Of a stretch of DNA of 64,000 nucleotides, positions 1,445 to 63,144 are shown piece after piece; position 1 is the stretch's first letter, and each line of letters opens with the position of its first letter. The notes under the pieces are model-generated. The model was given only the letters and a program-made list of their open reading frames with translations, did not search any database and was not told the DNA's origin. Position numbers and translations under genes: made by a program. Origin of the DNA: Diplonema papillatum (lineage: Eukaryota; Euglenozoa; Diplonemea; Diplonemida; Diplonemidae); NCBI GenBank assembly GCA_030068145.1, contig JAPJBO010000292.1, forward strand, positions 142,501 to 206,500. The letters are read 5' to 3'.

Positions 1445-1589
1445 GTATGCCTTCGGTTCCTTCCCCCCCCTAAACATTAAACTAAGTTTTTCCCCCCGTC
1501 GCTTTTCCATTCTTGCATTTCAGGCCTGCATGCCCCATCGAAAGCAATCGAAAAGAAAACAAAGGAGCGTTTTACCACCTTGACGGGAT

Positions 1590-2000: not shown

Positions 2001-2054
2001 CAATTCTTCCCCTCTGCTTCCCCGTCATTATGTTTCTGTCCTCTTACAACACAG

Positions 2055-2336
2055 GTACCAGGGAAAGCCTGCTACACGGGAGCCAAGCTTCACGTGTTCG
2101 GCGGTACTGCAGAGCCACGGGCCTACGGGTCAAGTGGCTACCGATTTCCCAAACTAAAGCATCAAGGCGTGGCGCACCTTGGGGCTTGACGCTTGCGCTG
2201 AACACAAGCTCGTCGAGACGGTCAGCCACAGGGCAGAGCGGACGGGGTTGTGGCACTGTGCTGCCTCCGACTCAAGCTTTGCAAGCTGTGGTTGACCGTC
2301 ACGTTCCTGGACCAGGAGCGGCCTTTTTCTTTTCTT
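2055..2336 (+). repeat. SINE-like dispersed repeat, 280 bp, copy 1
   Basis: A compact unit beginning ACCAGGGAAAGCCTGCTAC and ending GGAGCGGCCTTTTTC. Near-identical copies lie at 45707-45980 (+), 11640-11872 (-) and 29990-30262 (-), with a fragment at 25905-25975 (-). The sharp ends, uniform length and terminal run of T suggest a Pol III-type short interspersed element, but I do not find clear A and B boxes. Short ORFs here simply recur with the repeat and are not counted as genes. Confidence 0.7.
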
Positions 2337-2662
2337 TCTTCTTCTACCTATTTGTGGACAACCCAATTCCTGCTTCCCCGGAGACAGTATTCGTTGTCAG
2401 CTTAAAGGAACGGTGGCAGCGGTTTAAACAGGACACATGTAGAGCGACCCGCCCGTCGAACGGGGAGCCGGGCAAGGACTTCCCCCGTTTATCCGCACGG
2501 AACCCCATCTGAAATTCACGAAAGGGTCCAGTGCCAAACCGGCAATCTTCCAACGAGCCGCGGATTTCGTAAAACGGTAGCGAATTCTAGCCGAGCCACC
2601 CCAGGAATTGGCTGGGCTTGGCTGGCAAGTTTCTCTCGAGGCGGGAAAGCAGCACATCTGCG

Positions 2663-3065
2663 ACTACCTCGCGTGATGAGATCGCCGAAGTGTGCACGCT
2701 ACCGCGTACGATATCAGGAGACTAGCGGCAAGGCAGCAGAGTGAGCAACCTGCTGAAGCATGAGCTGAGAGTAAACATTCCCTCCAATCCCCGCAATCCA
2801 CGCAAAACCCTGTTTTCACAATTCTTCCCCTCTGCTTCCCCGTCGACCCGCCCGTCGAACGGGGAGCCGGGCAAGGACTTCCCCCGTTTATCCGCACGGA
2901 ATCCCACCTGAAATTCACGAAAGGGACTAGCGGCAAGGCAGCAGAGTGAGCAACCTGCTGAAGCATGAGCTGAAGTCTAGCCCGATGCAGTAAACATTCC
3001 CTCCAATCCCCCCCCACTGGCACACACCCGAACTTCACAAACAAGCAAAAACTGCCAGACAGCCG
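2663..3065 (+). repeat. Tandem partial copies of a GGCAAGGCAGCAGAGTGAGC repeat
   Basis: Two copies (about 2720-2815 and 2926-3065) share GCAAGGCAGCAGAGTGAGC and CCTGCTGAAGCATGAGCTGA. An interposed duplicated block, with GACCCGCCCGTCGAACGGGG at 2448 and 2845, shows local tandem duplication. Related pieces occur at 5455-5600, 7495-7570 and 13800-13870. At 5455 this family directly abuts the truncated exon copy. Confidence 0.6.
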
Positions 3066-3120
3066 TTTAAAACCGTTCTTAGGGTACAGCATTGCGCGTT
3101 TCAAGAGCGGCAAACCGCGC

Positions 3121-4764
3121 ATGGAAGAGCCAGAATACGCCGGAAGACACCAACCCCTTAACTTCAAACCAGCCGAACTGCCTGTAACACCGGACGATCG
3201 CGACTCAATTACAGACAGCCACTCCTCAACAACCCAAGAACACGAGGAAAGACCAACAACCCTCCTTTCACAACCACAACCACAGTTCATCTTGAAACAC
3301 CGAGTAGCCAACCTAGCAGCAACCATCACTTTAGCGGCAGCAATCGCAGCCGCCGGAGCGAGGACCATGTCCAAACTCACGAGATACACCACCACAAACT
3401 CCTGTTTTCTGCAAGCGGCCCTCAACTTGATCGCCGCCACAGACATGGCACAACAAGTAGTCACATACCACGACTGCCCAACACACACGAAAGGCGAATG
3501 CACGGCAGCTGTCCACGCTTGGGTGACAGGAAAACGGACGCAAGCAACACTGCTGCACGTTTTCGCCAACATCGACGGACCGTTCGGCAACGGGCAGCAA
3601 TGCGACCTCGGGGAAGTGCTAAGGGCCATCACCACAGCACTTCTTGACGAAAACCTCGCACACCAAGCTTGCCAGCAACATCGCCCTGATGCTTTCAACG
3701 GTCTACGACATACAACGACGACGACAACTACTTGTAAAAACTGCAACCACAACAAAACCAACCCCCCCGAAGACCACGACATAACCTTTCTACCTCCAAT
3801 CGACAACTCGATCCAACGGTGCTTGAACAACCACATCAAACCTGGCCCCGCCGCCGACTACAGATGCGAAGTCTGCAAAATCACCGATACCACCCTCACA
3901 ACAACAACATTTCACCGCATTAATTCAATGCTGTTGATTCAGCTTCAAAGAGCCCGTAGACACGAAGCGACGAACCGTACCGCTATACGCGCCGACCACT
4001 CTATCACGCTGCCAGGACAAAACACACCACTCGTTCTCAAAGCCATAGCAGTACACTCCGGCCACAACAACGCAGGGCACTACGTCATCCACGCCCTCAA
4101 CGATATCGACGCTAACCAACGATGGACGCGCTTCGACGGACTACAGACGCACTCCACTTCGACACAAAACTACGCCGACAACGAAGTTTACCTCTGCGTC
4201 TACCAGCTCAAAGACTACCCACAGACGGATGTCCCGCCACCCATAGACCACAACCACTATGAACCCCCAAAGCCTGCCACGTCCAGAACCACAACACAAG
4301 AGCCGGACTCGACGCAAAGTATACTTAGAGCCATGCGCGGAGACGAGACATCTACCGACACACCCACACAACGACACGACAGCACACCCCCCACACAAAC
4401 ACCCACAACACCAGGCACGTCACAGACCTCCAGTACCACCGCGGAAACAGAGACCAGCAGTGAAGACGACTTACGATGTCCCCACTGCCACACACGCACA
4501 ACAACAACCGGCCTCAAACTGAAGGGAAAACAAGGATTACGGACGCACCTACGTTACTGCAAGAAGAAACCAACCAGAACTAAGTCACAAGCAGAAACAA
4601 CGCTGCGAAGCACCACCCAGAAACGAGAGAGATGTCCCTACTGCCACAGCGACGGACGAACCGTGGGGAAACCACTCTTCAAAAGTCTACGACACCATAA
4701 GCCCTGGTGCAAAAAGAAGCACTGTAAACAACGCACAGCAACGACGACTCCATCAGACGAATAA
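3121..4764 (+). CDS. Ubiquitin-specific-protease-like (C19) protein with two C-terminal C2HC zinc fingers
   Basis: A 547-residue intronless ORF. After a disordered N-terminus of about 95 residues comes a USP-type fold: Cys box TTNSCFLQAALNLI (about residues 97-110), a zinc ribbon made of CKNC and CEVC (about 204-250), and a His box GHNNAGHYVIHALND (about 310-325) followed by W-x-R-F-D-G. The usual Asn three residues after the catalytic Cys pair is Gln here. The last 110 residues hold two C-x2-C...H-x3-C type fingers (CPHC...THLRYC and CPYC...HHKPWC). The family removes ubiquitin or ubiquitin-like tags; the fingers suggest nucleic-acid binding. It lies on the sense strand inside PDE intron 1 and is rich in ACA/ACC/AAC codons, unlike the GC-ending host exons, so it probably arrived with a mobile element. 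It could be a transposon accessory protein or a captured cellular gene. Confidence 0.75.
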   Translation: MEEPEYAGRHQPLNFKPAELPVTPDDRDSITDSHSSTTQEHEERPTTLLSQPQPQFILKHRVANLAATITLAAAIAAAGARTMSKLTRYTTTNSCFLQAALNLIAATDMAQQVVTYHDCPTHTKGECTAAVHAWVTGKRTQATLLHVFANIDGPFGNGQQCDLGEVLRAITTALLDENLAHQACQQHRPDAFNGLRHTTTTTTTCKNCNHNKTNPPEDHDITFLPPIDNSIQRCLNNHIKPGPAADYRCEVCKITDTTLTTTTFHRINSMLLIQLQRARRHEATNRTAIRADHSITLPGQNTPLVLKAIAVHSGHNNAGHYVIHALNDIDANQRWTRFDGLQTHSTSTQNYADNEVYLCVYQLKDYPQTDVPPPIDHNHYEPPKPATSRTTTQEPDSTQSILRAMRGDETSTDTPTQRHDSTPPTQTPTTPGTSQTSSTTAETETSSEDDLRCPHCHTRTTTTGLKLKGKQGLRTHLRYCKKKPTRTKSQAETTLRSTTQKRERCPYCHSDGRTVGKPLFKSLRHHKPWCKKKHCKQRTATTTPSDE

Positions 4765-4957
4765 CCTCACTAACCACGGGTACCCAGTGTGCCCAGAGTG
4801 CCTTAACTGTGGCGAGCAACGAACAGTTTTACCCTGCAATCTACCCAAAAAAAACCTTATCTTAGGACGGAAGCAACCCGCACCACATGAAGCACCGCAA
4901 GTGCCGCGAAATCCAAGCACCACACTGCGAGAAAATACATATAAACGCGGACAACAG

Positions 4958-5218
4958 ACCGGTACGGGCTACAAGGCAACCCCTGCTCAACTTGTAGAAC
5001 GTGGGGGGCCCAAGACTACACTCCACGAAGGAAAGTACTTGGTGTCGGTCACAAACAGTCCCGGACATGGCTAGCCATAACCCATAACGAAAGCGTGCAC
5101 TAAATATACAACCCGTAACCACATAGCCCTTTCTTGCTCTAAGAGAACCCATTCATGAACGGTCACACGGAGACCCTAAAACCCCGGAATTTCAAGCGAA
5201 CTTTAACTCTAAAAAGTC
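4958..5218 (+). repeat. Dispersed repeat with promoter-like 3' module, copy 1
   Basis: Unit with ACTTGGTGTCGGTCACAAA in the middle and ending in GGTCACACGGAGACCCTAAA plus CCCCGGAATTTCAAGCGAAC. Other full or long copies: 24785-24973, 47428-47703, 52198-52443 (+) and 26505-26690 (-). The 3' module also occurs alone or joined to other sequences at 12747, 15598, 22680, 23036, 26251 and 54965. The TAAAA box follows GGAGACT at a fixed distance. Confidence 0.7.
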
Positions 5219-5265
5219 GAGAAACACCATTCTGTACAAACACGAACACAAAACAACGCAACTAG

Positions 5266-5454
5266 GTTCACGCGGCAAGAGCGTGTTGTCGATTCTGAAC
5301 AACAGCGCGTCGAACCTGTCGGGCGGCTCCGACGTGGCCTCGAACCCGCGGGAGGCGCTGCTGCGCATGAAGATGATGTCGCTGCGCGGGAAGATCGGCC
5401 GCCGAGTCCCTCGAGGCGGCGAAGCAGCACTCGTTCAACATCTACGACTACCTC
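5266..5454 (+). pseudogene. Truncated, broken copy of PDE exon 2
   Basis: Near-identical to the start of the real exon at 5750-5955, including its AG acceptor context. It lacks about 17 nt after GGCAAG, has an extra C at the AAGATCGGC position (a frame break), and stops matching after GACTACCTCGCC, where a dispersed repeat begins. Even the upstream intron sequence (GTCGAGAAACACCA) is duplicated. This is a duplication within the intron that later decayed, not an alternative exon. Confidence 0.85.
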
Positions 5455-5631
5455 GCCGAAGGGTGTACACTAACGGGTACGGCATCAGGAGCAAGCAACC
5501 ATGACTGAAACACGGGCTAAAGGCCAGCCCGATGCGGTAAACCGTTACCTCCAAGCCCCTCCCACTGTCACACACCATACACGATTTACAAACAAAAAAA
5601 GCAAGAAGTCGAGAAACACCAATCTGTACAA

Positions 5632-5747
5632 ACACAAACACAAACGCAAACACAAACACAACCACAAACACAAACACAAACACAAACACAAACACAAACA
5701 CAAACACAAACACAAACACAAACACAAACACAAACACAAACACAAAC
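5632..5747 (+). repeat. CAAACA hexanucleotide microsatellite at a splice acceptor
   Basis: About 19 near-perfect repeats of CACAAA ending directly in the CAG acceptor of PDE exon 2. The array is purine-rich on the transcribed strand, so this acceptor has no ordinary polypyrimidine tract. Long ORFs on both strands here come from the repeat. Confidence 0.9.
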
Positions 5748-5749
5748 AG

Positions 5750-6554
5750 GTTCACGCGGCAAGCGCGAGAGGAGCTGTCGAGCGTGTTGTCGATTCTGAA
5801 CAACAGCGCGTCGAACCTGTCGGGCGGCTCCGACGTGGCCTCGAACCCGCGGGAGGCGCTGCTGCGCACGAAGGTGATGTCACTGCGCGGGAAGATCGGC
5901 GCCGAGTCCCTCGAGGCGGCGAAGCAGCACTCGTTCAACATCTACGACTACCTAGCGAGCGAAGAGATCGACGGCGTCGCGCGCTGCTTGGCCCTCGTTG
6001 TCCTCTTCTTCGAAGACCGGGGGCTCACGGAGCAGTTCCACATCGACAAGGACGCCCTGGTCAACTTCCTCTGCGCCATCGCGGCGCTTTACCGCAACGT
6101 GCCGTACCACAATGTTCTGCACGCGATCGACGTGACGCAGACGCTGTTCCAAATGATAGGCCGGCTGCCGTCCGGCACGCTCACGCAACTCGAAGAGCTT
6201 GTGTTGCTGCTCTGCGGCATGTGCCACGACGTCGACCATATGGGCCTGAACAACTCCTTCCACTACAAGGCGGAGACTCCTCTGGGCATCCTCAGCAACG
6301 CGACGGGCGGAACCTCGCCGCTGGAGGTCCACCACTGCGACCTGACCGTCAACACCCTGCAGCGCGAGTCGTGTGACATCTTCCAGCACGTGCGCAACGC
6401 GGCCGAGCGGACGACCGCCTACAAACTGCTCGTCAAGTGCATCCTCGGCACCGACATGGCCCTCCACGACAAGTTCTGCAAAGGCTTCGCCGCTGTGGAG
6501 CCCGACGACATCCAAAACGCGGACAAAGAGCTGGTGATGATTATGCTGCTGAAG
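5750..6554 (+). CDS. Phosphodiesterase, exon 2: linker and N-terminal half of the catalytic domain
   Basis: Continues the GAF exon in frame. After a linker beginning FTRQAREELSS comes the PDEase_I metal-binding region: YHNVLHAIDVTQ (H-N-x-x-H), CHDVDHMGLNN (HD...H), and LEVHHCDLTVNTLQRES with the helical segment that follows. These give most of the two-metal HD-type site. The exon ends at LLK (6552-6554) before a GTGTGT donor. Reading through gives an unrelated tail and a stop at 6650, so the splice is needed to restore the conserved KAADISN segment in the next exon. Confidence 0.9.
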
Positions 6555-7969
6555 GTGTGTCTCCTTCATCGCAAAGCGCTCCGCGCTGAAATCGAAATAT
6601 TTTTTTCGAGACATTGCAATGTGTTCCAAAAATGTAAGCCTGAGCAATGAGCGAACCAACACCAAACTGAAGATCATGTCACTGTCACAGTTTACATGTC
6701 CGTGCTTCACATGGAGATCCCTAACTCAAGACATACCAGGTGAAAAAGAAGAAGAACAACCTGAAGAGAGGCCTGGAACTCGTGTGGATGCGTCAACGCA
6801 ACAGTTTTGAAAGGAAAGCGAAAGAGCGAAGGCATATTTGTTTGCCCGTCTGCATGTTTAAGATCACGCTCTGTGTTGCGCCCGGGTTTCGTTCGGTTCC
6901 GTGTTGTAGAAGAAGGCGCGAAAAAAGGGAACAGAACAATCGGGGGATGGACCGGAAACGACGACGGAGGGGGCGAGGGCGGGGTAGGAACCGATGAATG
7001 AGGCGGAAAAAAGGAGGCAGCACAAAATGGCATAACGGAGGCCCTTTTTTGGGGGCGTGGCCGGACGTGCGACGTTTCACCTTTCTTGTATAAGCACCTG
7101 CTTGTAGGAAATACTTGAGGAGGCTGCCAGCTGCAAAAGATCAAAGGAGGTAAATGTGCTGTAGCCCACACGAAACACAGGTGAATCTGGGCTCAGTGGC
7201 GGGCGTAAGCGTTCAACAAAAGTTGTGCGCCCTCCACTGAACCCAGTGGGGGGGCTACAACACATTTACCTCCTTTGATCTTGGAATATTGCTGCGATAG
7301 TGGGGAGTCATCGGCATGCCGATGAGATACCACACTTTGATCTTTCGCAACTGGCAGTCTGCTCAAGCATTTCCTACAAAGCAGGTGCTTATACGAAAAG
7401 AAAAGGGAGCGAGAATCTACGGGAGGCGCAACGTGGCGTACTGGCAAATTATGGACGTCTTCGCAGCGCGCCACGCCACCGTTGTGAAGAGTGTATGCGA
7501 GCGGGTCTGCTACCAAGAGCCCAGCGGAAAGGCAGCAGAGTGGGCATCCTGGCTCAAGCATAAGGTGGGTCCTACTCTCACAGAGTATAGTTTTCGTTGG
7601 GTTTGTCCCCCCCTACCACGCACAGGTCTTGATGCGAGGGGTTGATCCCAGCCTTCTGAAAACCAGCAGTACGCTGATGCCCAGCAAACTGGGCCACCTT
7701 GCAACCTGAGCTCTGGATCCAACTACGAGCTTTTTAACAGCAGCAGCAACAATATACGCTGTTGGTGCTGGAATTACCGCGGGTGCTGGCACCCGACTTG
7801 TCCACCAATTGTGTTCATTGACAGATATCATCCATTGCTTCTAACGTACTAAGTACGCGTCGAGGCTATTTCTCTTCGCAGCCGTTTGTTCCAGAAATAC
7901 TTCTTGCAACCGTGAGTAAAAAGTCTGTCGAATCGACGATCGTTCACCCGCACAAAATCCATCGCACAG
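6555..7969 (+). other. Intron 2 of the phosphodiesterase gene, 1.4 kb, repeat-filled
   Basis: Phase 0 (AAG|GTGTGT ... GCACAG|GCT). It contains two inverted copies of the AAGCACCTGCTTGTAGGAAA repeat family (7084-7220 and 7210-7400) and a piece of the GGCAGCAGAGTG repeat (7495-7570). No independent gene is seen. Confidence 0.8.
7084..7400. repeat. Two head-to-head copies of the GCACCTGCTTTGTAGGAAAT repeat family
   Basis: Family consensus runs from TATAAGCACCTGCTTTGTAG through AAAGGAGGTAAATGTGCTGT and CACACGAAACACAGGTGAAT to GCACAAGGCAGTCCCTCGAG. Plus-strand copies: 7084-7220, 12245-12440, 15020-15140, 30945-31115, 46503-46682 and 53978-54250. Minus-strand: 7210-7400, 26022-26185 and 30745-30795. 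A 3' stub lies at 58556-58594. The pair here forms a large inverted repeat inside PDE intron 2. Confidence 0.75.
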
Positions 7970-34559: not shown

Positions 34560-34708
34560 AGGCGAAGTGGAAGGCACACCCAACAGGGTCTTCGTTTCCC
34601 GCTGATAGTTTCAAGTCCGTTCCCTTGACTGCTGTTTCGCCATAATATATTATAGTAGGTAGACAGAAGGAATCTCATTGGTCCATTCATGCGCGTCTTT
34701 AATTAGAA

Positions 34709-34768
<60 letters not shown>

Positions 34769-35385
34769 ACCTGATCTCTCAGCGTTGACATTCCGGGCAG
34801 AAGTGCGAAACCCGGTCTCGGGAGCGAAGCGGTGATCGGCCTCGGCAGTTCCATAGAAGAGCGCGGCAACGAAAACGCACACCCACAGCGGGGGTTACAA
34901 CTACAACCGTGGGGTTGGGCGGCCATACGATCCTGTTCAAAGACAAGCAAGTTCGCTGTGGGAGAGCTAGGCTACCGTACCGAGTGATCAGCATGCACAC
35001 AGACGCAAGAACTACGCAGCGCCTGCTATGCGTACAGCCGTGAGCGTAGCCAGTGAGGAAACTGCCGAGCAGCCTGTTTGAAAGCGACGGAGGACACGAG
35101 TAGCGGGGAACGTGGGGGAGGATCCAAAATGACTTCCCTCGATCTTGAGACGGCATTCGTTTACAGCAGCGGACTACGACGGTATCGGATCATCTTGGAT
35201 CCCCACGCTCTCGTTCTTGATTAATGAAGGCATTCTTGTCGAATGCTTTCGCAGAAGTTCGTCTTCCTACGATCTAAGAATTGCGCCTCTGACGTAGGAG
35301 AACAGCACGACCCTGGCAGTCCCTATTGATCCCGCGCAACGAGGCCTTAGACGAAACTCCAAACAGAACCGCTGACCGGGTAACA
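34560..35385. other. No supported gene
   Basis: AT- and GC-mixed sequence with short overlapping ORFs on the minus strand (34756-35156) and no recognised repeats. Confidence 0.3.
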
Positions 35386-40370: not shown

Positions 40371-40745
40371 GACGACGACGAAGACTTTTTTGACGTCGAC
40401 TCGACGCCGTCGGATGCGTTCGTCCAGGCTGACCCAGGCAGGGCGGCAGCAGCCGGGACCAAGGACGGCTCTGATTCATGGATTCAGGATGCGTCCAGCC
40501 GCGCCGGGAGCCCCCCGCTGCGCCACCCGCCGCCCCAGCGGCAGCCGGACGCCGCCAGCCGGCCCGGGTCGCCGTCGCGCCTGCGCCCGCCCACCAGACC
40601 TGCCAGCTTGTCGCCCCGGATCGTTTCTCTGTCGCCTCGCCAACTTCGCGGTATGCTTGCACCTTGTCTCCGTCGCCCTGCGAACGCCCCGCCAACGAAT
40701 GCGCCACCTACACAAGCGCTCCGCCGACGGGGGCACCACCTATAA
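40371..40745 (+). CDS. Low-complexity repeat protein, exon 2
   Basis: Reads DDDEDFFDVDSTPSDAFVQA, then Pro/Arg-rich disordered sequence. Read straight through, it stops at TAA in the first satellite unit (40743-40745). A GTATGC donor at 40651, of the type used by the PDE gene, suggests the exon may instead end at 40650 with the satellite inside the following intron. No downstream exon was found to settle this. Confidence 0.6.
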   Translation, partial: DDDEDFFDVDSTPSDAFVQADPGRAAAAGTKDGSDSWIQDASSRAGSPPLRHPPPQRQPDAASRPGSPSRLRPPTRPASLSPRIVSLSPRQLRGMLAPCLRRPANAPPTNAPPTQALRRRGHHL

Positions 40746-43700
40746 ACACTCTGCCGACGAATGCACCACCTATAAACACTCTGCCGACGAATGCACCACC
40801 TATAAACACTCTGCCGACGAATGCACCACCTATAAACACTATGCCGACGAATGCACCACCTATAAACACTCTGCCGACGAATGCACCACCTATAAACACT
40901 CTGCCGACGAATGCACCACCTATAAACACTCTGCCGACGAATGCACCACCTATAAACACTCTGCCGACGAATGCACCACCTATAAACACTATGCCGACGA
41001 ATGCACCACCTATAAACACTATGCCGACGAATGCATCACCTATAAACACTCTGCCGACGAATGCACCACCTATAAACACTCTGCCGACGAATGCACCACC
41101 TATAAACACTCTGCCGACGAATGCACCACCTATAAACACTCTGCCGACGAATGCACCACCTATAAACACTCTGCCGACGAATGCACCACCTATAAACACT
41201 CTGCCGACGAATGCACCACCTATAAACACTATGCCGACGAATGCACCACCTATAAACACTATGCCGACGAATGCACCACCTATAAACACTCTGCCGACGA
41301 ATGCACCACCTATAAACACTCTGCCGACGAATGCACCACCTATAAACACTCTGCCGACGAATGCACCACCTATAAACACTCTGCCGACGAATGCACCACC
41401 TATAAACACTATGCCGACGAATGCACCACCTATAAACACTATGCCGACGAATGCATCACCTATAAACACTATGCCGACGAATGCACCACCTATAAACACT
41501 ATGCCGACGAATGCACCACCTATAAACACTATGCCGACGAATGCACCACCTATAAACACTATGCCGACGAATGCATCACCTATAAACACTATGCCGACGA
41601 ATGCATCACCTATAAACACTATGCCGACGAATGCATCACCTATAAACACTATGCCGACGAATGCATCACCTATAAACACTATGCCGACGAATGCATCACC
41701 TATAAACACTATGCCGACGAATGCATCACCTATAAACACTATGCCGACGAATGCATCACCTATAAACACTATGCCGACGAATGCACCACCTATAAACACT
41801 ATGCCGACGAATGCATCACCTATAAACACTATGCCGACGAATGCACCACCTATAAACACTATGCCGACGAATGCATCACCTATAAACACTCTGCCGACGA
41901 ATGCACCACCTATAAACACTATGCCGACGAATGCATCACCTATAAACACTATGCCGACGAATGCACCACCTATAAACACTCTGCCGACGAATGCACCACC
42001 TATAAACACTCTGCCGTGCCGACGAATGCACCACCTATAAACACTATGCCGACGAATGCATCACCTATAAACACTATGCCGACGAATGCACCACCTATAA
42101 ACACTCTGCCGACGAATGCACCACCTATAAACACTCTGCCGACGAATGCACCACCTATAAACACTCTGCCGACGAATGCACCACCTATAAACACTATGCC
42201 GACGAATGCACCACCTATAAACACTCTGCCGACGAATGCACCACCTATAAACACTCTGCCGACGAATGCACCACCTATAAACACTCTGCCGACGAATGCA
42301 CCACCTATAAACACTATGCCGACGAATGCACCACCTATAAACACTCTGCCGACGAATGCACCACCTATAAACACTCTGCCGACGAATGCACCACCTATAA
42401 ACACTCTGCCGACGAATGCACCACCTATAAACACTCTGCCGACGAATGCACCACCTATAAACACTATGCCGACGAATGCACCACCTATAAACACTATGCC
42501 GACGAATGCATCACCTATAAACACTCTGCCGACGAATGCACCACCTATAAACACTCTGCCGACGAATGCACCACCTATAAACACTCTGCCGACGAATGCA
42601 CCACCTATAAACACTCTGCCGACGAATGCACCACCTATAAACACTCTGCCGACGAATGCACCACCTATAAACACTATGCCGACGAATGCATCACCTATAA
42701 ACACTCTGCCGACGAATGCACCACCTATAAACACTCTGCCGACGAATGCACCACCTATAAACACTCTGCCGACGAATGCACCACCTATAAACACTATGCC
42801 GACGAATGCATCACCTATAAACACTATGCCGACGAATGCACCACCTATAAACACTATGCCGACGAATGCATCACCTATAAACACTATGCCGACGAATGCA
42901 TCACCTATAAACACTATGCCGACGAATGCATCACCTATAAACACTATGCCGACGAATGCATCACCTATAAACACTATGCCGACGAATGCATCACCTATAA
43001 ACACTATGCCGACGAATGCATCACCTATAAACACTATGCCGACGAATGCATCACCTATAAACACTATGCCGACGAATGCACCACCTATAAACACTATGCC
43101 GACGAATGCATCACCTATAAACACTATGCCGACGAATGCACCACCTATAAACACTATGCCGACGAATGCATCACCTATAAACACTATGCCGACGAATGCA
43201 TCACCTATAAACACTATGCCGACGAATGCACCACCTATAAACACTCTGCCGACGAATGCACCACCTATAAACACTATGCCGACGAATGCATCACCTATAA
43301 ACACTATGCCGACGAATGCACCACCTATAAACACTCTGCCGACGAATGCACCACCTATAAACACTCTGCCGTGCCGACGAATGCACCACCTATAAACACT
43401 ATGCCGACGAATGCATCACCTATAAACACTATGCCGACGAATGCACCACCTATAAACACTATGCCGACGAATGCATCACCTATAAACACTATGCCGACGA
43501 ATGCATCACCTATAAACACTATGCCGACGAATGCATCACCTATAAACACTCTGCCGACGAATGCACCACCTATAAACACTCTGCCGACGAATGCACCACC
43601 TATAAACACTCTGCCGACGAATGCACCACCTATAAACACTATGCCGACGAATGCATCACCTATAAACACTATGCCGACGAATGCACCACCTATAAACACT

Positions 43701-43930
43701 ATGCCGACGAATGCATCACCTATAAACACTATGCCGACGAATGCACCACCTATAAACACTATGCCGACGAATGCATCACCTATAAACACTCTGCCGACGA
43801 ATGCACCACCTATAAACACTCTGCCGACGAATGCACCACCTATAAACACTCTGCCGACGAATGCACCACCTATTCACACTCTGCAGTCGAATGCGCCACC
43901 TAAAAACACTCTGCCGACGAATGCGCTTCG
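40727..43930 (+). repeat. 30-bp minisatellite, about 106 units
   Basis: Unit contains TATAAACACTCTGCCGACGA followed by ATGCACCACC, varying at two sites (C/A before TGCC, and C/T in GCAYCACC). Two 35-bp variants with an extra GTGCC begin at 42001 and 43356, 1355 bp apart, and the variant order before each is similar, pointing to block duplication. The last units (from 43870) are degenerate. Long ORFs in two forward frames and on the minus strand follow from the 30-bp period and are not genes. Confidence 0.97.
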
Positions 43931-50145: not shown

Positions 50146-50424
50146 GGGCAAAACCCCCGTTTTCACACTTCTTCTTACGATTCCGTGAAGGCAAACGATA
50201 CGCGGGGCAAGAAGCGACCGAAGCATGCCCGACGCGTGCAAAAACACACAACTACGTAGTAGAAGACACAGATAACAATCAGATGGCCGCCAAGGCAACA
50301 ACTACCAGGACACTAGACCGATACGGGCTACATGGCAACCCCTGCTAAACATGAAACTGCCAAAAGTGCTCGCCTGCCTTGATGGCACTTGCACCTTAAA
50401 GAACTCAATGCTAAACATTCCTCT

Positions 50425-52126
50425 TGTCGACCACCGCGCCCAGAAAAGAGGGACTGGCCCAGGTGCCTCCTCGAGCACGGAATTGCTACGACGCGCACGA
50501 GAGATCTGGTCGGGCCGGTTCAATCCCTCATGGCGGAGATCCTGGCAGAACGTGCGAGGCACGTCAACCAAGAATGGAAGGAGCAAAGCGAGAACTCCGT
50601 GGGAGCTTTGCGGGCAGAATCCGGTGCGAAGGTACGATTTCCCGTATCAGCGGATCGCCCCGGCTTGGGCGTGGTTACGGTACTGGGACGACCGGACCTT
50701 CCTCGCCCTCGTGGACTGGCTCGCGGGACTTGAGTGGTCATCGACCGGCGACGTAGCATCGGTTGAGCTCGCTGTCGACTTCGAGTTGTATTCCGGCTTG
50801 GACGTACGGCTGCCCAAGAAGGAGGCGAAAACGCTTCGCGAGAAAGCGAACGGCATGCGATGCATGATCAGTGCCGTCATGAAGCTGGCGGCCCAGCAAG
50901 AGCTCGGCGGCTGCCTGCCCGGATCGATAAAGGCGGTGACCACGGCACTGTCCTTTATTGGACTGCCCAGCCTGCCGGGCCTGGAACCCAGACCCCGACA
51001 CCGGATGCCCGCTACAGGAGGAATCGTCCAGGAACAGTTGAAGGGGAACGGAGCCTACGACAATGGGCCCGTGTACAACGACGAACGACGCGCGAGGGCA
51101 GGCCGGTGGCCCGCCCCCCAGAGACCTGCCGCAAACCCGGACCCCGTCCATTTTCTGGGCGCGGTGGTCGACAAGAGGAACGCGACGAAGTGCGTCGCGC
51201 ACTACAAGGGGAAGTGTGAGGTCTGCCGCCGCCTCGGAGACAAACAGGGGCCCACCGTGCAGGCGTGCTGTCGGCACCACCACGCCGCCGACGACGGGCT
51301 ACCCATCGCGATCTGCGACCGACACCGAATGTCCAGGTGCGCGGTCTGCAACACGCCGAAGACGTGCTGTGCCGCAGGGCACCACGGGTGCCGCGAACAC
51401 AACCGCGGCCCGTGCGAAGGGTGCCGCCAGCTGCCGACGCTCGCAGAGCGACGACCCGCCGCGTGCTGCGGCAAAGGGCACCACAGTGCCGACGAACCGA
51501 AGGCTACGAAGCCCGCCGCACCACCCAACACGAACACGCCGGCGCCCGCGGCCACGCCGCGCTCGCCTGCGGCTGAGCAACTGTCCGAGTCGCCCAGGAA
51601 GGGGCGGAAGCGTATCCTGCAGGAGACCCCGCGACCGACCACCCACCGGGGGCCGAAGCGCCCGGCCAAGAAAGCAGCGACGCGGCAACGCACGCGAACG
51701 GCGCGGTGCCTCACCAGCTCACCAACCTCCCCGCCTTCATCACCGTCATCATCACCGTCGCCCAAGACGTCATCAACGGGGAACATCATCCCCATACAAA
51801 CAACCCTTCCGCGCACGCCAACCGGCGAGCCCAAAGACGCGCCTCCCAGAAGGAGGCGGAAGCGACCCCTGCAGGAGTCCTCGAAGCTCGCATCCCCGAC
51901 AGGGAAGCCACGAAGATCGAAGCGATCGCGGCAGGCCGTGAACAACTCTACGCTCGATCACGAAATGGAATGCCTAACTTCTTCCCCATCGTCGACCCGG
52001 AAACAGCCAAACCGGCCCGGAAAGTCCGCACCGCGAAAGCGAGCGGGAATTGAACTTGACTTGGAAATGGCTAGTTTGACCACATCCTCATCATCGTTGA
52101 CTCTCCCGACGGACGACGTCATAAAG
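50425..52126 (+). CDS. C-terminal part of a non-LTR retrotransposon-like protein with cysteine-rich tail
   Basis: Open from 50351 to TAA at 52126-52128, but the first 70 nt come from a dispersed repeat, so the element proper starts near 50420. WAWLRYWDDRTFLALVDWLA and SVELAVDFELYSGLDVRLPK resemble the region after the reverse transcriptase domain in some protist LINE proteins (family knowledge, moderate certainty). The RT itself is missing, so this is a 5'-truncated copy. Residues 275-385 hold repeated C-x2-C and CC...HH knuckles (CEVCRRLGDK, CAVCNTPKTCCAAGHH, CEGCRQ). The tail is Pro/Ser/Arg-rich. A perfect 30-bp inverted repeat joins 50418-50447 with 51151-51180. It lies in MORN intron 1; a decayed relative is at 23.4 kb. 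Confidence 0.5.
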
Positions 52127-52139
52127 TAACGCTAGCCCG

Positions 52140-55688: not shown

Positions 55689-56222
55689 CTGAACACGGTA
55701 GTCGACATGTTTTTCCCCCGCGAGACGAGCTCACCCGCCGGCCAGAGCGCCCGCTGCAGCACCAACTCCGGTGCCGCCACTCACTGTAGCAGAGCCGCAA
55801 CCTGCAGCGCGCCTCCGGAGCGACTTACGCCCGCCGTAGCAGTGCGAAGAGAAGTGAGAAGACTGGAAACTCCCCGGAGAGATGGTCCCTGCACTCTAAC
55901 TCGTCCCCCTCTCGCTCTCTCTCTCTCTCTCTGTTTTTTTTTTACCGGGGGTGCAAGTTAACCTTTTGGCTGGAGATGTTTTTCTAACAGCATCAGGAAG
56001 ATCGGGGTCAACCATATCTCCCTGCTCCTCTCCGGTTCCTGGCAGAAACTCGTCGTGTCGCTAACCTTGCAGGTCTTTCAACTCAAATGGGAAAACAGGA
56101 AGGGATCCGCAGACGACTTGCGAAAAGAAGAGAGTGAAATACATGTTGGGGAGTGGGGGAATGGAAAAAAAAATCTAACAAGGGGGGAAGTCCGGAGGAG
56201 GAGATATGCATATTTGCTCGGG

Positions 56223-58047
56223 TCAGGGGATAAAATTAATATATACTGCCAGATTCGCCTTCTGCAACATCACGGCATACCCGTCGCTCCGAAACGCTTG
56301 GCAAACGTCAGGCCATCGTTTCTGTACCACCGTGTTGTCGTCGTAAAGGACCCAAACCTCCTTCCTTCGTGTAGGTCACGTAGTGTCCACCCCCTGGCTC
56401 TCCGAGGTGCACGATCACTCCGAGAACGTTGTATCGATATGTGTCGAGAACTACCGTCTCAGTGATTGAAACCGGCGAGGTGACCTTTACAGCCCTGTTG
56501 TTCACCCAACGTGTTCGCTTCAACAATACGAAAACATCTGCACCCACTAGGATTTCAACAACCTTCGACGCTTCTCCCACAAAGGTGCACGGATGCACTT
56601 CACATCTCCAGTCAAAAACCGTGTCAACTGTGTTAAGTGAAGAGTTCAACATTTGAACAGAAGCTCTGGGTAACGTGGGAAACTTCGACACTGTTATGGC
56701 CTGAGTCCGCACCGCTGCAGTCGCGCCTTCTAGCCCCTGACTCCGAATCCACGTCATGGCTTCGTGGGCATCCTGATGAGAGCAATCCCGACGACCAGCT
56801 GCAGGAAAGATCCTTTGCTTCAGCCGAAGAATGTCATCCCTCAAACCCGTCTGTGCATTTGCATACTTCGTGAAGACGGCGTGGATTGCCCGCGAATCGT
56901 CCCCGTGCTCTCCTGCGTAAGAATCTTCGGTTGCCCGAAGTGTGACCGCATCATTCCTGCGGAGCAGCTGCACAACGACTATCAGCCAACACGTGTTTTG
57001 TGCATTGTCAATGCCCCGGCCTTGCGGGACCCACCTCCTCTCAACGGGCAGTTGCGGAATGTTGTTGCCTGAAGACGATGCGGGTTTTCGGGAACGCGGA
57101 GATTTCTCTGGAGGAGGGCGTTTGCTGCCGGTTTGCGGAGCTGTCGGAGCTGTTTGCGCTGTCGGGGCTGTTCGCTGCTTGTTGCGAGGTGCAGCGGACG
57201 TTTTGGGGTGCGCGGCCTTCTCACGATCTACTCTGGCCCGCTCCTGGCTATCTGCTCTGTGCTGCTCATAGTCTTCCTCCGGAATCTCGAGGCGATCCAC
57301 CATCTCCGGTGGGAGAACTTGAACACCACGAAGTTCTTCTTTTCTTTCGAGGACAGTAGCTAGGAGGGTGTCAACGTCCACCGGGGCGAACCGCATGTAG
57401 TGGCCGTTTTCCCTGATGATGAACATTGTTGGAGGCGGCTCAACAGGGAGTTGGCTCACTGTCCGGCCGCCGTCGATTTCCCAATTCTCTTGACAGAGCA
57501 GGATCAGCAAGATCGTCGCGGCTTTGTTGGCATCTTCGGATGCAGTAGCCAGAAGCACGTTCACCTTCAGCCTTGCGCAAACCAGACGAAGGCACAAGTC
57601 GCCTCCGCTGGCAGCCCCTGCCGCTTTGTACTCGAATTTGGTGTGGAACAGTGCACCCAAACGTTTTAGAGGAGGGGGCGGCTTATCACCTTCCCAGCCC
57701 AGCTCATTCACGAGTTTCCCGTGCAGGGTTTTCAACGCATTCTTTTTGTATCCTTCAAAATGCGAACCCGGATGGTCTTGAAGGTACTCGCCTATTGCCA
57801 GCGGGAATTCCGCGATCAATTCCCGCATCGACTGCAAGGAAACTTGTGCGGTGTTTCCCGACGCAGCCGAGATCGGTGCGAATTCGCCGGCGAGAGCATA
57901 GAACATGTTGTGCTCGTCTGGCGGCATGTCTGTGACTGATTTAATGAAGCTGAATGCCTTCTCCAGACGAGCAACTCGATGAGCAGACTCGGTCAACACC
58001 TTCGATGCCGCTGGGCGTTTGAGGGTCCATTCCACGTTGCAAAGCAC
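56223..58047 (-). CDS. OTU-like/USP (C19) fusion protein, intronless, one frameshift near the C-terminus
   Basis: The main frame runs 58047-56308 (579 residues). Residues 35-235 look like an OTU domain: PPDEHNMFYALAGEFAP sits where OTU enzymes have D-G-N-C-(L/M)-F, followed by SMRELIAEFPLAIGEYLQDH and, at the end, RENGHYMRF. The catalytic Cys is replaced, so this half is probably inactive. After a Lys/Pro linker (270-335) comes a USP domain: Cys box GIDNAQNTCWLIVVVQLL, QDAHEAMTW, and His box GEPGGGHYVTYTKE. A +1 shift after TKEG restores EVWVLYDDN and DGYAVMLQ, the usual USP ending, in the next frame to a stop at 56223. Either this is a young pseudogene or the shift is tolerated or programmed. 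It faces away from the retrotransposon 680 bp to its right. Confidence 0.7.
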
Positions 58048-58104
58048 TTGGCGCTAATCTGATCTTCAAGGCTTTTTTCTCGAACGGCATCCTACTACTT
58101 TCAA

Positions 58105-58594
58105 AGACCTGTGCATTATGAGGTAAGCGAAGAACAAATCAGATTGTGTATTGTATTTGCCCCTACCTCTATATTTCCTCCCTTCCATTCGGAGTCAAAG
58201 CAGCTACGTCGAGTATTTTCTGTCGCTATTATCCTCGCCCAGCCAGCTGACCAGCCAGTAACCCAGACAGCTAGGTGGGCACAAGGTACTAGAAGTGTTG
58301 GCAAGGTCGCTGTACAGGACAAGCCCGCTGATGGCACAATCGCACGCAACAGGTGAGCACAAGGTACTAGAAGTGTTGGCAAGGTCGGTGTCTTTACCGG
58401 GTCCGCTGTAGCGCAGGTGCAGATAGAGGAAGTTCGGTTCAAGACACATCGGCGTTTGTGCACCATCACAAGAATAAAAAGCGACACCCACTACGGCAGC
58501 GTACTAAAAGCAACTCACCAAATCAGGTGAAAAGCCGCTAGTGCGCACAAACAGTCTAGTCTCCTTCGAAATGAGCACAGTCCCTCGAGTATTT
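58105..58594. repeat. Dispersed repeats left of the retrotransposon
   Basis: 58105-58215 is a reversed GACGTAGC...TTCTTCGC repeat. 58260-58400 has a 45-bp direct repeat (GCACAAGGTACTAGAAGTGT twice). 58480-58555 is the GGCAGCGTACTA family. 58556-58594 is the 3' stub of the GCACCTGCTTTGTAGG family, broken exactly where the retrotransposon begins. Confidence 0.65.
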
Positions 58595-58595
58595 T

Positions 58596-58712
58596 ATTTT
58601 TACCAAACATGCAATGTTGGAGGAAATAAGAACGCGTCACAGGCCTTCCACGGCGTTTCCTTGCGCCCTGTACCAAGAAACAAACGTCCAGGGCAAAGCG
58701 TTCAACGAAAAA
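58596..58712 (+). repeat. A1 left terminal repeat of the YR retrotransposon
   Basis: Pairs in direct orientation with A2 at 62946-63069. Identity is lower in the middle (GGCGTTTCCTTGCGCCCTG against GGCGTTTTCACTTGCGTCC), so the copies have diverged or the insertion is not very recent. Confidence 0.8.
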
Positions 58713-58728
58713 TACTAGAACGAAAAAT

Positions 58729-59967
58729 ATGTCAAGTTGGAAACCTCACAGCAGGAAGGTGAAGTTCACCTACCCACCCCCGCTGCAAGAAGCCTTCGAG
58801 CGGGTGACGGGACAGCGCCCCCTGAAGGGGGTAAAACTGCTGACCGAGGCAGCCGCCGGCTTCGTCGGCGAGCGTTTCTCCTCGGACGAGGCCACCGCGG
58901 TGCAACAGCTTCGCACCGTCGTCGCTCGGGTGTTGGCAGCACCGGATAACGCCGTGGAGGCGCTCGAGGGAGCCCAGCTGCTGCTGGCTTTCTGGCAGTT
59001 GCAGCAGAAGGCCCCGGTCCCCGTGGAGGGAGAGATGGTACGGCTCGGGCTGGTACCCGAGGAGGAGACCGACCTTGACTCTGAGTCGGACAGTGACGAA
59101 GAGGACACGCCGGTGGCAGGCGGAGGGGTTGACGACAATCGTCGGCAGCCGTCGGGGGGTCGTGGAACAGAGCTCCCACCTCCTAACATGCCCCGTTCTG
59201 CCCGGAGCCCAACAACCACCTCCACCTCCGTCTCGCCCGCGGTTACACCAGTCCCGGCTCAGCCCCCCCGTCCAACCAACGACCTGCTCGCTGTGCTAGA
59301 GAGCATGCGGGAGGAGCAGAAGGCAGAAAGGGCCCAGCAAAGAGCCGAGCTTTCCGAGCTCAGATCGGAGATGGCCAAGTTGAAGAACGGAGGCCCCCGC
59401 TCCAACCCGGCGATCTCGGAAAACGGGAACGCTCCTTCCTCGTGCCGCGGAGAAGGGAGCGATGCAGGGAGCGCGGCCTCTACTACCGCGCCGCGCGAAG
59501 CGGTGCTACTCGATCCGGCAATGTGGGTCGACATGGACCGCACAGAAAGAGCGGTGTTGCGCGTGGAGCTCGAGAGGCACTTCGCGACCCCCCTCACAAA
59601 GGCGCCGCACGAAACGGCGTTTCTCTTCGAGCAGCTCGAAGATCTCATGCATGGCATGGGCACGGGCGAAGTGGAGGACGGCTTCGCCGTCCGTCTCGCC
59701 AGGAAGGTGGTCGTCCGCCTCATCGTACTCCAGACGGGGTACGAAATGTCGTGGGAGGCGGCCCAAGCAGTTTCCGACGACTACTTCGGGGGTCCGAGAA
59801 AACCGGAGTACCTGAAGCAAGCCCTGGCACAGCGAGACAAGCACCGGACGAAAAGCCGTCCACAAAAGCAGAAGTCGGAGAAGGGGGAAAGGGGGTACAC
59901 CACACAGGAAAAGGGAGAAAAGGGTGCCTTTCGCGCCAAGAAGGCCTCGGGCGGCGGGAAGGCCTAG
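58729..59967 (+). CDS. Gag-like protein of the YR retrotransposon
   Basis: 412 residues from ATG 58729 to TAG. It starts MSSWKPHSRKVKFTYPPPLQ, has an acidic stretch (DLDSESDSDEEDTPVAG), a coiled-coil region (about 195-235, EEQKAERAQQRAELSELRSE), a folded helical domain (about 260-370, WVDMDRTERAVLRVELERHF) and a basic C-terminal tail (RTKSRPQKQKSEKGERGYTT). No zinc knuckle is seen. Position and composition fit the structural ORF that opens YR retrotransposons. The following frame overlaps its end, so translation may be coupled or frameshifted. Confidence 0.7.
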   Translation: MSSWKPHSRKVKFTYPPPLQEAFERVTGQRPLKGVKLLTEAAAGFVGERFSSDEATAVQQLRTVVARVLAAPDNAVEALEGAQLLLAFWQLQQKAPVPVEGEMVRLGLVPEEETDLDSESDSDEEDTPVAGGGVDDNRRQPSGGRGTELPPPNMPRSARSPTTTSTSVSPAVTPVPAQPPRPTNDLLAVLESMREEQKAERAQQRAELSELRSEMAKLKNGGPRSNPAISENGNAPSSCRGEGSDAGSAASTTAPREAVLLDPAMWVDMDRTERAVLRVELERHFATPLTKAPHETAFLFEQLEDLMHGMGTGEVEDGFAVRLARKVVVRLIVLQTGYEMSWEAAQAVSDDYFGGPRKPEYLKQALAQRDKHRTKSRPQKQKSEKGERGYTTQEKGEKGAFRAKKASGGGKA

Positions 59968-60179
59968 TCGGCTCGTCCACAGAACAAGACCCGGCCGGGT
60001 TTCCCCTCCCACCCCCCCACCCAGCGCGCTCACCTACGACGTCGCCCACCCACCCCCCGCCAACCGGACCCAGCCTCCCTGTCACCGATTTCCTCAGGAG
60101 CGCCGGAAAAGCTGTGAAACCGGAGAAAAAGAAGCCCGGGCGTCCGCCCCTGGTCGAGGTGCCGCCGACGGTGCAGGAG

Positions 60180-61068
60180 ATGAAGCGGGTCACCGCGGCG
60201 GCAAATTGTCACCTGTCGCAGGCACTGGCGGACTCAACGTGGAGGTCGCTGGAGTCGGTGCACCGCCGCATGCTTCAGTTCAAGTGGAACTGGGAGGCCC
60301 AGTCAGGGCAGGAGATCGATGTTCCGACGGCGGTGGTGCTGTGGCTCTCGCGGAAGATGCTGGGCGAACCCGGGCGCAAGCCCATAATTTGCTCTTCCGC
60401 CCTGCAGTACATGCAGGACCTGAAGTCAGCCCAGCGGCGCTTCGGGACACCAATCGGAGACTCACAGATTTCGCGATTTCGAGCGGTCGTTGAGAAGGCA
60501 GGGTGCCATGCGCCCGAAGCGTCAGGCAGTCCCGGCGACGCTGCGCGACATTCGAAAGGCGTTGGGGCCGCAGGCATCGACGGACGTAGGGCTTGCGATT
60601 GCGCTTGCGTGGGCCGGGGCGGCCCGGGTCTCGGACGTGATTCGCCTGAGCGTCGGGGACATCACCTGGGAGGACGGGTATGTGGCGGTGAACTGGTCGC
60701 AGACGAAGTCCGACCCCTTTCGTCTGGGTGTCACCACAGGTTTGGTCCTCTCGCAGGAGTGGTCAGAAGTGTTGAGGAGACGGACCAACGGCAGGGCTGC
60801 ATCCGAGCCCCTCCTCTCGGCCACCTACCCGAGGATCAAGGCAGCTCTGAAGCGTGTGCGGCCGGAGTTGTCGTGTCACTCCATCCGCCGGGGCGCTCTT
60901 TTCCGCCTCCTGCAGAAAGGGCTCCATTTGGAGGCGATACGCCAGGTGTCGCGGCACAGCTGCCTGGATGCTCTGGTCCGCTACCTACCGGCCGGGAAAT
61001 TAGCGATAGCCCGCGAGACGGCGGTGACCGCGGGCCACCTTATCATCAACAGCGGCAGCGATCTTTGA
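60180..61068 (+). CDS. Tyrosine recombinase of the retrotransposon (split by a +1 frame change)
   Basis: The core-binding half (60180 to about 60500) reads MKRVTAAANCHLSQALADST and RRFGTPIGDSQISRFRAVVE. Then one base must be skipped (60485-60510) to enter the catalytic half, AVPATLRDIRKALG onward. Catalytic residues are visible: Arg in AWAGAARVSDVIRLSV, H-x-x-R in CHSIRRGALF, then His and Tyr in SRHSCLDALVRYL. This enzyme joins the circular DNA intermediate into the genome. The 5' part is open further upstream (TDFLRSAGKAVKPEKKKPGR), so the true start is uncertain. Confidence 0.8.
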
Positions 61069-61257
61069 GCGGAGCCCCCGTGCTTCCGTTTTCCCCTGCG
61101 TTCCCCAAATTCCGCCGCCCTCCGAAGTACGCGCCAAACGCTGCGTACGACCCGTCCCATCTAGATGACGGCCCAGACTTTTCTCTCCCCTACAGCCAAG
61201 CGCTCTGCGTTGAGGCGGCGGGCGGAAAGATTTCGCCCCCGGCGGTAAAGGCGAGAG

Positions 61258-62796
61258 GTGAGCTGGCGCAAATTTCGGCGGCTCGACTCCGAAGGCGTTC
61301 TTGCGGGTGTTCTCGACGTGTTACGCTCGGCGGATTCATTCCGTGAGGCCATGCGCGACGGGGCGCTCCGCGAGCTGGAAAACCCGCGTTACGCTAGGGG
61401 TTTGTCTCGGTTCATGCTGCGACACTTGCCGAAGCTAGAGACCTACGGGGTCGTGCGAGCGAGCACCGACGCTCGTGTTGTTCTGCCAGCCTTTGCGGTA
61501 GAGAAGAAGTCCGGCGGGCTCCGCCTTGTGGCCGATGGCCGCAAGCTGAATTCGTTGATGCGGAAACCACCCGCGATGATGCTCCCGGGCATCGATACCG
61601 TGGTGGACAGGTTCCTGGCATCGAGGTTCGTGGCACAGGCGGACGCCGTGAGCTGGTTTTACCAGTTCCCCCTGGACGATTCTGTCTCTCCGTACTTCGG
61701 TATGAACCTCGCAGGCCCCAGGGGTCGCTTTACAAAGGTGCAACTGTCGGTGATGTGCATGGGATGGAGCTGGGCCCCGTGTATAGCCCAGAGGTCTGCT
61801 CGGGTGCTTCTCCCGGAGTCGGAGGGGCTGTGTTGGGTAGACAACTTTTTTGTGGTCGGTGCAACACACGACGAGGTCGAGGAGCGCTACCGGAGCTTCC
61901 TTGACCGTTGCCGCCTCGTGGGCGCGGACATCAACACCCGGGACGCCATGTACGGCCGCCCCCTCAGCCGTTTTGAAGCTCTCGGTCTGGAGTTCGACCT
62001 CGAGGCCGCGACCCCGCGCTACCGGTCGGCTCCGTCGTGGGTGCGGAAGTTTTTAGAGAGCAGTGCCCTCGGCCTGGTCCTTGCCGGGAGAGCGACACCT
62101 CGGCAGGTCTTTACTGTTTTTGGAGGGGTCGTCTGGTTCATTTTTTCCACCAGGCGGCGCTTGTGCTTCCTGAGGTCAGCGATGGCTTTCTTGCGGAGAG
62201 CTGCGTCGCTTCTTGGCGAGGGCGTAGTTTCGTGGGACGACGAGGTCGACATTCCCCCCTCCGCTCTGCACGACCTGCGGTCGGTGCTCACCGACCTGGC
62301 GTCGAATCATTGGGTCAGTCGGGTCGAAATGGATCGGCAGGCATTGCTCGCGTGGTCCGACGCATCCGACGGCGAGTGGGCGGTCGTTCTGGAGACGTGT
62401 CCGGAGTTGGCGTTTCAGGGGATGTTTACGGACTCATCGGTCCACATCTATCTGAAGGAACTGCTGGCCGCTGCACAGGCAGTCTGGTTCGCGTCGTTGG
62501 AGGTGCCCCGTTGTCTCCTGTCCGCGAAGGTGGACAACCAGGCCGCCGTTTTCGCCCTGCAAAAGGGCCATAGCAAGAACTTCTGGGCGAATGAAATCTT
62601 GTGCTTGGTCTACGGGATCGCGGACCAGGCGGGAATCATCCTTGACCCCTCCTGGGTGCCGACAGACGAGCAGCGTGCGGATGAGTACACGCGCGGGTCG
62701 CGCGCCCTGGCGACCTCGCACCCCGCCTTGAGGGATCATCTCGAGGCCTTCAGCCTCTCGCCTGCGTTTGAGTCCTGGCTCCGCAGGACACTCTAG
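61258..62796 (+). CDS. Reverse transcriptase and RNase H of the retrotransposon
   Basis: 512 codons, same frame as the recombinase catalytic half. RT blocks: GGLRLVADGRKLNS, VAQADAVSWFYQFPL (first catalytic Asp), SVMCMGWSWAPCIAQRSA, and CWVDNFFVVG, where the usual D-D is D-N. RNase H follows with all four acidic residues: LLAWSDASDGEWAV, YLKELLAAAQ, AKVDNQAAVFALQKGHS and EQRADEYTRGSRA. The domain ends at TAG 62796. The preceding 190 nt read sensibly only in another frame (PSHLDDGPDFSLPYSQALCV), needing a second +1 shift near 61258. Confidence 0.88.
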   Translation: MSWRKFRRLDSEGVLAGVLDVLRSADSFREAMRDGALRELENPRYARGLSRFMLRHLPKLETYGVVRASTDARVVLPAFAVEKKSGGLRLVADGRKLNSLMRKPPAMMLPGIDTVVDRFLASRFVAQADAVSWFYQFPLDDSVSPYFGMNLAGPRGRFTKVQLSVMCMGWSWAPCIAQRSARVLLPESEGLCWVDNFFVVGATHDEVEERYRSFLDRCRLVGADINTRDAMYGRPLSRFEALGLEFDLEAATPRYRSAPSWVRKFLESSALGLVLAGRATPRQVFTVFGGVVWFIFSTRRRLCFLRSAMAFLRRAASLLGEGVVSWDDEVDIPPSALHDLRSVLTDLASNHWVSRVEMDRQALLAWSDASDGEWAVVLETCPELAFQGMFTDSSVHIYLKELLAAAQAVWFASLEVPRCLLSAKVDNQAAVFALQKGHSKNFWANEILCLVYGIADQAGIILDPSWVPTDEQRADEYTRGSRALATSHPALRDHLEAFSLSPAFESWLRRTL

Positions 62797-62886
62797 CCTA
62801 CGAAAGAAGAGCACCGTTGAGGCGGTGTACGTACCCCATGGTTTGTGCCGCTTTGCGGACCTATCGGGCTGTGCGTTCAACGAAAA

Positions 62887-63144
62887 ACAATTCCCTCCCC
62901 TCATCATTTTCCGGTTTCAACCGTGGTTAGCCAGTGACGCGTCTTATTTTTACCAAACATGAAATGTTGGAGGAAATGAGAAGCTCGTCGCCGCAAACCG
63001 TGGCGTTTTCACTTGCGTCCTGAATCCAGCTTTACGTAAAAAACGATCAGGCACTGCGTTCAACGAAAACAACTCTCTCTTCCCGTCATCATCATCATTA
63101 GTTTTGTATCAGCCGTGGTTGTGCGAGTGACGAGCTCTTATTTT
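62887..63144 (+). repeat. B1-A2-B2 right terminal repeats
   Basis: B1 62887-62945, A2 62946-63069, B2 63070-63144. GCGTTCAACGAAAA stands before both B1 and B2. B1 and B2 are about 70 percent alike with small indels. Confidence 0.8.

Follow-up and report, generated by a model that had tools for sequence, protein, structure and literature searches.

A 64,000-nucleotide stretch of the Diplonema papillatum genome (contig JAPJBO010000292.1, positions 142,501 to 206,500; hereafter the window) holds an open reading frame (ORF) in which a region resembling OTU deubiquitinases is joined to a ubiquitin-specific protease (USP) domain. This window ORF is 5'-truncated and decayed, and it belongs to a small repeat family; the family's longest frame without interruption lies on C28 (C-numbers denote contigs of the window's own genome). 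The family is probably the C-terminal portion of a Helitron-type transposase. Feature coordinates are collected in Table 1.

A truncated repeat copy and its helicase-bearing sibling

The initial annotation described a single intronless ORF, and we found an uninterrupted frame of 581 codons, free of internal stops; the absence of introns fits a transposon origin. The boundary at 56223 given there falls outside this frame, past its stop codon. The frame is longer than any in 300 order-1 Markov simulations (same dinucleotide make-up) of the 6 kb around it, in which the longest frame averaged 192 aa and reached at most 430 aa. Its earliest in-frame ATG is residue 43, and DNA similarity to C28 and C117 extends no further than 58037, so the window ORF has no genuine gene start. 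At the other end, the shared stretch extends to 56080 when compared with C28 and to 55946 when compared with C82. GC content at third codon positions (GC3) is 0.57, against 0.48–0.64 in six other transposon-type frames, 0.75–0.76 in the two frames of a neighbouring DIRS-like element and 0.86–0.91 in two presumed host exons (read by eye).

Searching the window's own genome (271 Mb, 2910 contigs; best 75 of 487 candidates scored) gave 77 rows, and the counts that follow refer to the matches listed. Ten rows, on six contigs (the window's own, C28, C117, C82, C235 and C67), belong to the same family, some of them as pieces carrying stops. The other 67 cover the USP half only, at 26–30% identity: 14 span query residues 299–572 and lie in frames of 1570–2694 aa, while most of the remaining 53 span residues ~287–439, at least 14 of them in frames of 1509–1516 aa.

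The 1103-aa frame of C28 carries, in order, part of a PIF1 helicase, a linker, the OTU-like region, a second linker and the USP. It starts within the PIF1-like helicase (Pfam PIF1 E 3e-12, UCH E 6e-15), and an overlapping upstream frame holds the N-terminal part of PIF1 (E 5e-15). The window copy, being 5'-truncated, has no helicase. The join between a Cys-less OTU-like region and a USP, as first annotated, thus recurs in C28 and C117, and the question of whether the fusion travels with transposons finds an answer in the C28 frame: it begins inside a helicase, which points to a Helitron-type tail and not to a host gene beside a retrotransposon, as had been supposed.

Two family pieces are complementary. 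The C117 piece (L012, 4236–6117; 98% to C28) ends at base 5759 of the C28 locus, and the C235 piece (L019, 4455–4853; 99%) starts at base 5756, so that they overlap by 4 bases on separate contigs; this would fit one copy split by an insertion or exchange. The C117 piece is flanked by reverse transcriptase (RT) and other frames of long interspersed nuclear element (LINE) type.

The helicase region of C28 has 88 matches in its own genome. Among these relatives we read the frame of C166 alone, not the closer C907 or C585. This single frame matches Helitron_like_N (5e-38), PIF1 (5e-42) and UCH (2e-14), and its USP has at least five copies at 95–100% identity (its own among them), alongside weaker pieces (98 rows; best 125 of 421 candidates scored). 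Because C166 has Rep, helicase and USP in one frame, such Helitrons exist in the window's own genome. Given a C28 sibling with PIF1, OTU-like region and USP, and C166 with Rep, PIF1 and USP, we take the window ORF to be, most likely, the tail of a Helitron transposase. We infer with good support that the family as a whole is the C-terminal end of such a transposase, as in C166, and C28 itself looks like a Helitron branch with an OTU-like insert.

Several points weigh against a Helitron origin. C166 shows no OTU within the 2287 of its 2986 residues that were seen, it is a distant helicase relative of C28 (27% and 53% identity over two pieces), and its USP is farther from that of C28 than are the USPs of two other element types. 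In C28 the helicase is divided between two overlapping frames, and this copy is therefore no intact transposase either; inspection by eye, confined to the frame list, showed no Rep domain upstream. Nor could Helitron ends be placed: the copies differ at their 3' ends and have no clear terminal hairpin or CTRR.

The USP and OTU-like halves

The C-terminal half of the window ORF matches the Pfam USP family (UCH) with E 3.6e-7 for the whole frame and 3e-8 for that half alone, scoring 30.5–34 bits against a curated cut-off of 23.9 (C28 scores 55.9). It contains a Cys box (NTCW), a QDAHE box and a His box (GGHYVTY), with NTCW and GGHY found in both the window and C28; the names of these boxes, and of those in the OTU-like half, are our assignments. 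The USP domain of the initial annotation, with its Cys and His boxes, is borne out, but its description of the USP as active is wrong for this copy. The C28 USP retains its Cys, His and Asp boxes and its zinc knuckles; compared with it, the window copy has a net loss of 19 residues around the first zinc knuckle and a frameshift past the His box that eliminates the Asp box. The window copy is a relic, and catalysis by it is very unlikely.

In the N-terminal half, the blocks DEHNMFYAL, GGDLCL and NGHY follow the OTU order in an alignment with eight canonical OTUs, and Asn replaces the catalytic Cys in all three copies compared (window, C28 and C117), in agreement with the OTU landmarks and missing Cys first annotated. 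The ratio of nonsynonymous to synonymous substitution (dN/dS) for this half is 0.30 between the window and C28 and 0.32 between the window and C117 (Fisher p 3e-4 and 6e-4). Since all three copies share the Asn and dN/dS is ~0.3, we regard the region as constrained. The OTU references came from 10 fetched loci of 150 matches, 9 of which entered the profile and 8 the alignment; L045 (cut by a contig end) and L053 (a near-copy of L048) were left out of the latter.

OTU ancestry of the N-terminal half is only suggested by these data. An unlikely alternative, though the strongest of those we considered, is that this half is an unrelated transposase domain or linker with chance OTU-like motifs, leaving the USP as the only deubiquitinase. 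Pfam finds no OTU match up to E 10 in the window or C117 copy, and scores against an OTU hidden Markov model (HMM) built from the own genome are equalled by 140, 159 and 234 of 2000 shuffles for the three copies. A first hhalign run gave no OTU alignment; after trimming, the result was marginal (P 0.049, with 7 of 200 shuffles reaching the same score). Our first motif pattern matched none of 300,000 shuffles and, in 232 frames, only the four of the family, but it was composed with the query in view and fails on seven of the eight canonical OTUs. Another pattern, defined on the canonical OTUs, failed to match the query until two of its positions were relaxed post hoc.

Structure prediction for this half, proposed as a check in the initial annotation, gave a divided answer. 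A model informed by the three own copies and eight canonical OTUs resembles OTUs, with low confidence and some circularity, whereas an alignment-free model (predicted local distance difference test, pLDDT, 36.5) had no OTU in the best 50 of its 99 fold matches, the best of which had E 1.2. When reading the fold lists we took 3von, 4ksl and VCPIP1 to be OTU-family proteins. An OTU fold is thus plausible but unproven. Some other similarities were set aside: weak matches of the N-terminal half with E 0.17–5.9 made up 29 of 32 rows, and we took them as noise (two loci were read), with 28 of the 29 falling on the same query stretch and many scores being equal. A Cas10 match (E 1.6), a PHROG match (E 0.21) and PDB sequence matches (E 0.06–0.97) were not used.

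Another, improbable explanation is that the OTU-like and USP unit is mobile by itself, through retroposition or as captured cargo, and has landed beside helicase, RT and DIRS sequence. Truncation points do vary among copies, and the C117 piece does lie between LINE-type frames, but C28 has helicase motifs and the OTU-like and USP parts within one open frame, and C166, another Helitron, likewise ends in a USP. Least probable is a functional host deubiquitinase gene with a ubiquitin-binding pseudo-OTU and an active USP, as originally proposed: the long open frame and the purifying constraint on the OTU-like half favour it, but the homologous stretch has no start, the USP has lost its Asp box and a zinc knuckle, and we reject it on the helicase-fused frame of C28, the decayed pieces on other contigs and a GC3 unlike that of the presumed host exons. 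We also rejected the window ORF as part of the adjacent DIRS-like element, as it lies on the opposite strand and outside that element's limits. A tblastn search (E 1e-3) found no relatives of the window ORF in viral contigs or prokaryote genome contigs.

If the family is the tail of a Helitron-type transposase, the USP of a working element would, we tentatively suggest, act during transposition to deubiquitinate either the transposase itself or host factors of repair or chromatin. With somewhat more reserve, we suggest that the Cys-less OTU-like region may be kept as a non-catalytic module for ubiquitin binding or substrate positioning. These proposed roles agree with proposals made for Helentron VTDs (PMC9741609) and Ginger (PMC2836005).

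Deubiquitinase domains in other elements, and further window features

The window holds a second USP frame, of a different family (2974–4764), to which the initial annotation did not refer. It is intronless, has C-terminal zinc fingers and sits between exons that we read as one GAF/PDE gene (labels assigned by eye). This frame forms the tail of a high-copy element, with many copies at 94–99% among the matches listed (75 rows; best 73 of 2920 candidates scored). In C187, a longer copy, an RT lies upstream, which we identify as Penelope-like; Pfam reports UCH alone. In the 1513-aa frame of C516, Pfam matches GIY-YIG (E 8e-6) and, at the C-terminus, UCH (E 1e-15), with an RT match too weak for the cut-off (E 0.043).

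The C72 family (~2500 aa, with frames up to 2694 aa) also carries a USP, and Pfam finds only UCH in it. In the C72 frame (L013, 3–7403, minus), the USP is followed by Cys-protease-like motifs and then a C-terminus that by eye is hAT transposase-like. We dropped the hAT-like label, which came from a C-terminal motif while Pfam gives UCH alone, and treat the family as unclassified.

Pfam OTU has at least 150 matches in the window's own genome (best 150 of 656 candidates scored), all of those listed being above cut-off, and none in 14 control genomes. Many of the listed matches lie in frames of 1500–2100 aa that recur at identical scores. C170, the only one of ten fetched OTU loci traced fully, has OTU, apurinic/apyrimidinic (AP) endonuclease, RT and RNase H, and this OTU-bearing frame belongs to a LINE. 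On C957, C1760 and C2450, OTU-bearing frames of 1972 aa stand in tandem at a spacing of 7548–7550 bases.

Kinship among the USPs is not tied to element class: with phmmer, the C28 USP is closer to those of C72 (5e-32) and C516 (1e-28) than to that of C166 (5e-12). The USP tree has long branches, with good support for only one of five inner forks. It is possible that unrelated classes (Helitron, Penelope-like, LINE and the unclassified ~2500-aa family) acquired or exchanged ubiquitin-removing domains, with one Helitron lineage pairing a USP with a long-inactive OTU kept by selection.

The DIRS-like element beside the window ORF matches Phage_integrase (E 3e-9) and, below cut-off, RT (E 5e-5); beyond these Pfam matches, the DIRS name is presumed. 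No relatives of its RT were found in viral contigs. Elsewhere in the window, short pieces scoring as eukaryotic large or small subunit ribosomal RNA, remote from ribosomal DNA units, occur at 34681–34811, 35122–35364 and 7640–7944 (minus), and ~107 copies of a 30-base unit, with several open frames on both strands, fill 40691–43924. A 617-aa frame at 50276–52129 (plus) has cysteine-rich motifs and no Pfam match; the LINE frames of L012 and L056 share its 'VELAVDFE' stretch in their C-terminal parts. In the viral collection, contig L001 has a 1721-aa frame (1053–6215, plus) whose N-terminus is weakly OTU-like (E 0.0045, below cut-off), followed, by eye, by helicase- and methyltransferase-like parts.

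Table 1. Coordinates of window features related to the deubiquitinase-like frames and their neighbour
Feature	Position	Strand	Basis
Stop-to-stop frame, OTU-like + USP, 581 aa, relic	56308..58053	minus	
Stretch common to family copies (C28, C117, C82, others)	55946..58037	minus	blastn and alignments
OTU-like region, Asn at Cys position	57286..57996	minus	collinear with 8 canonical OTUs; weak profile support
Low-complexity linker, OTU-like region to USP (approximate limits)	57016..57285	minus	sequence
USP (UCH) match, residues 347–563	56365..57015	minus	Pfam PF00443
Loss of 57 bases around first zinc knuckle, compared with C28 (approximate site)	56680..56700	minus	
Frame departure from C28, Asp box lost (approximate site)	56355..56370	minus	
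Second USP frame, Penelope-like element tail, different family	2974..4764	plus	UCH E 1e-11
DIRS-like element	58594..63074	plus	tyrosine recombinase frame, RT frame, split direct repeats

Relation to known elements

Helitrons with OTU or VTD deubiquitinases are already known, and the window relic is most likely a USP variant among deubiquitinase-carrying Helitrons. Helentrons carry VTD and OTU deubiquitinase domains; in 121 elements VTD is accompanied by OTU, which sets a precedent for a transposon protein with two deubiquitinase folds (PMC9741609, PMC6431247). Like Helentrons, the present family probably has a rolling-circle transposon protein with added ubiquitin-protease domains. However, Helentrons have VTD, OTU or both and also carry an AP endonuclease, whereas here a USP (C19) accompanies a Cys-less OTU-like region, and in neither of the C28 frames, both incomplete, does Pfam report an AP endonuclease up to E 1.

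Ginger1 carries OTU or Ulp1 but not both, and Trichomonas vaginalis has a protein joining transposase_11 to peptidase C19; the authors propose a role for the ubiquitin pathway in transposition (PMC2836005). These too are DNA-transposon proteins joined to a deubiquitinase, and the T. vaginalis protein is a C19/USP precedent, but their transposases are of DDE or other types and not of the Rep-helicase type. Among retroelements without long terminal repeats (non-LTR), NeSL and Utopia have a Ulp1-like protease at the N-terminus (PMC4640811). They resemble the D. papillatum retroelements in having a polyprotein with a protease for ubiquitin-like modifiers, but here it is OTU in a LINE and a C-terminal USP in Penelope-like frames. 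Drosophila Otu and CG3251 are OTU proteins with Ser in place of Cys (PMC4654579) and so likewise retain an OTU-type protein despite loss of the catalytic Cys; they are host genes with clear OTU sequence, whereas here Asn stands in a transposon-type frame. In the open-access literature searched, we found no USP-type Helitron or Penelope-like element.

Earlier reports of deubiquitinases have been piecemeal, from Helentrons, Ginger and other elements. With several USP- or OTU-carrying element classes in one genome, and many uninterrupted frames in near-identical copies, the idea that ubiquitin removal aids transposition becomes directly testable. A Cys-less OTU-like region retained beside a USP would form a natural pseudo-enzyme pair. 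Acquisition by several classes, if true, would point to a host defence that works via ubiquitin and that different transposons counter alike.
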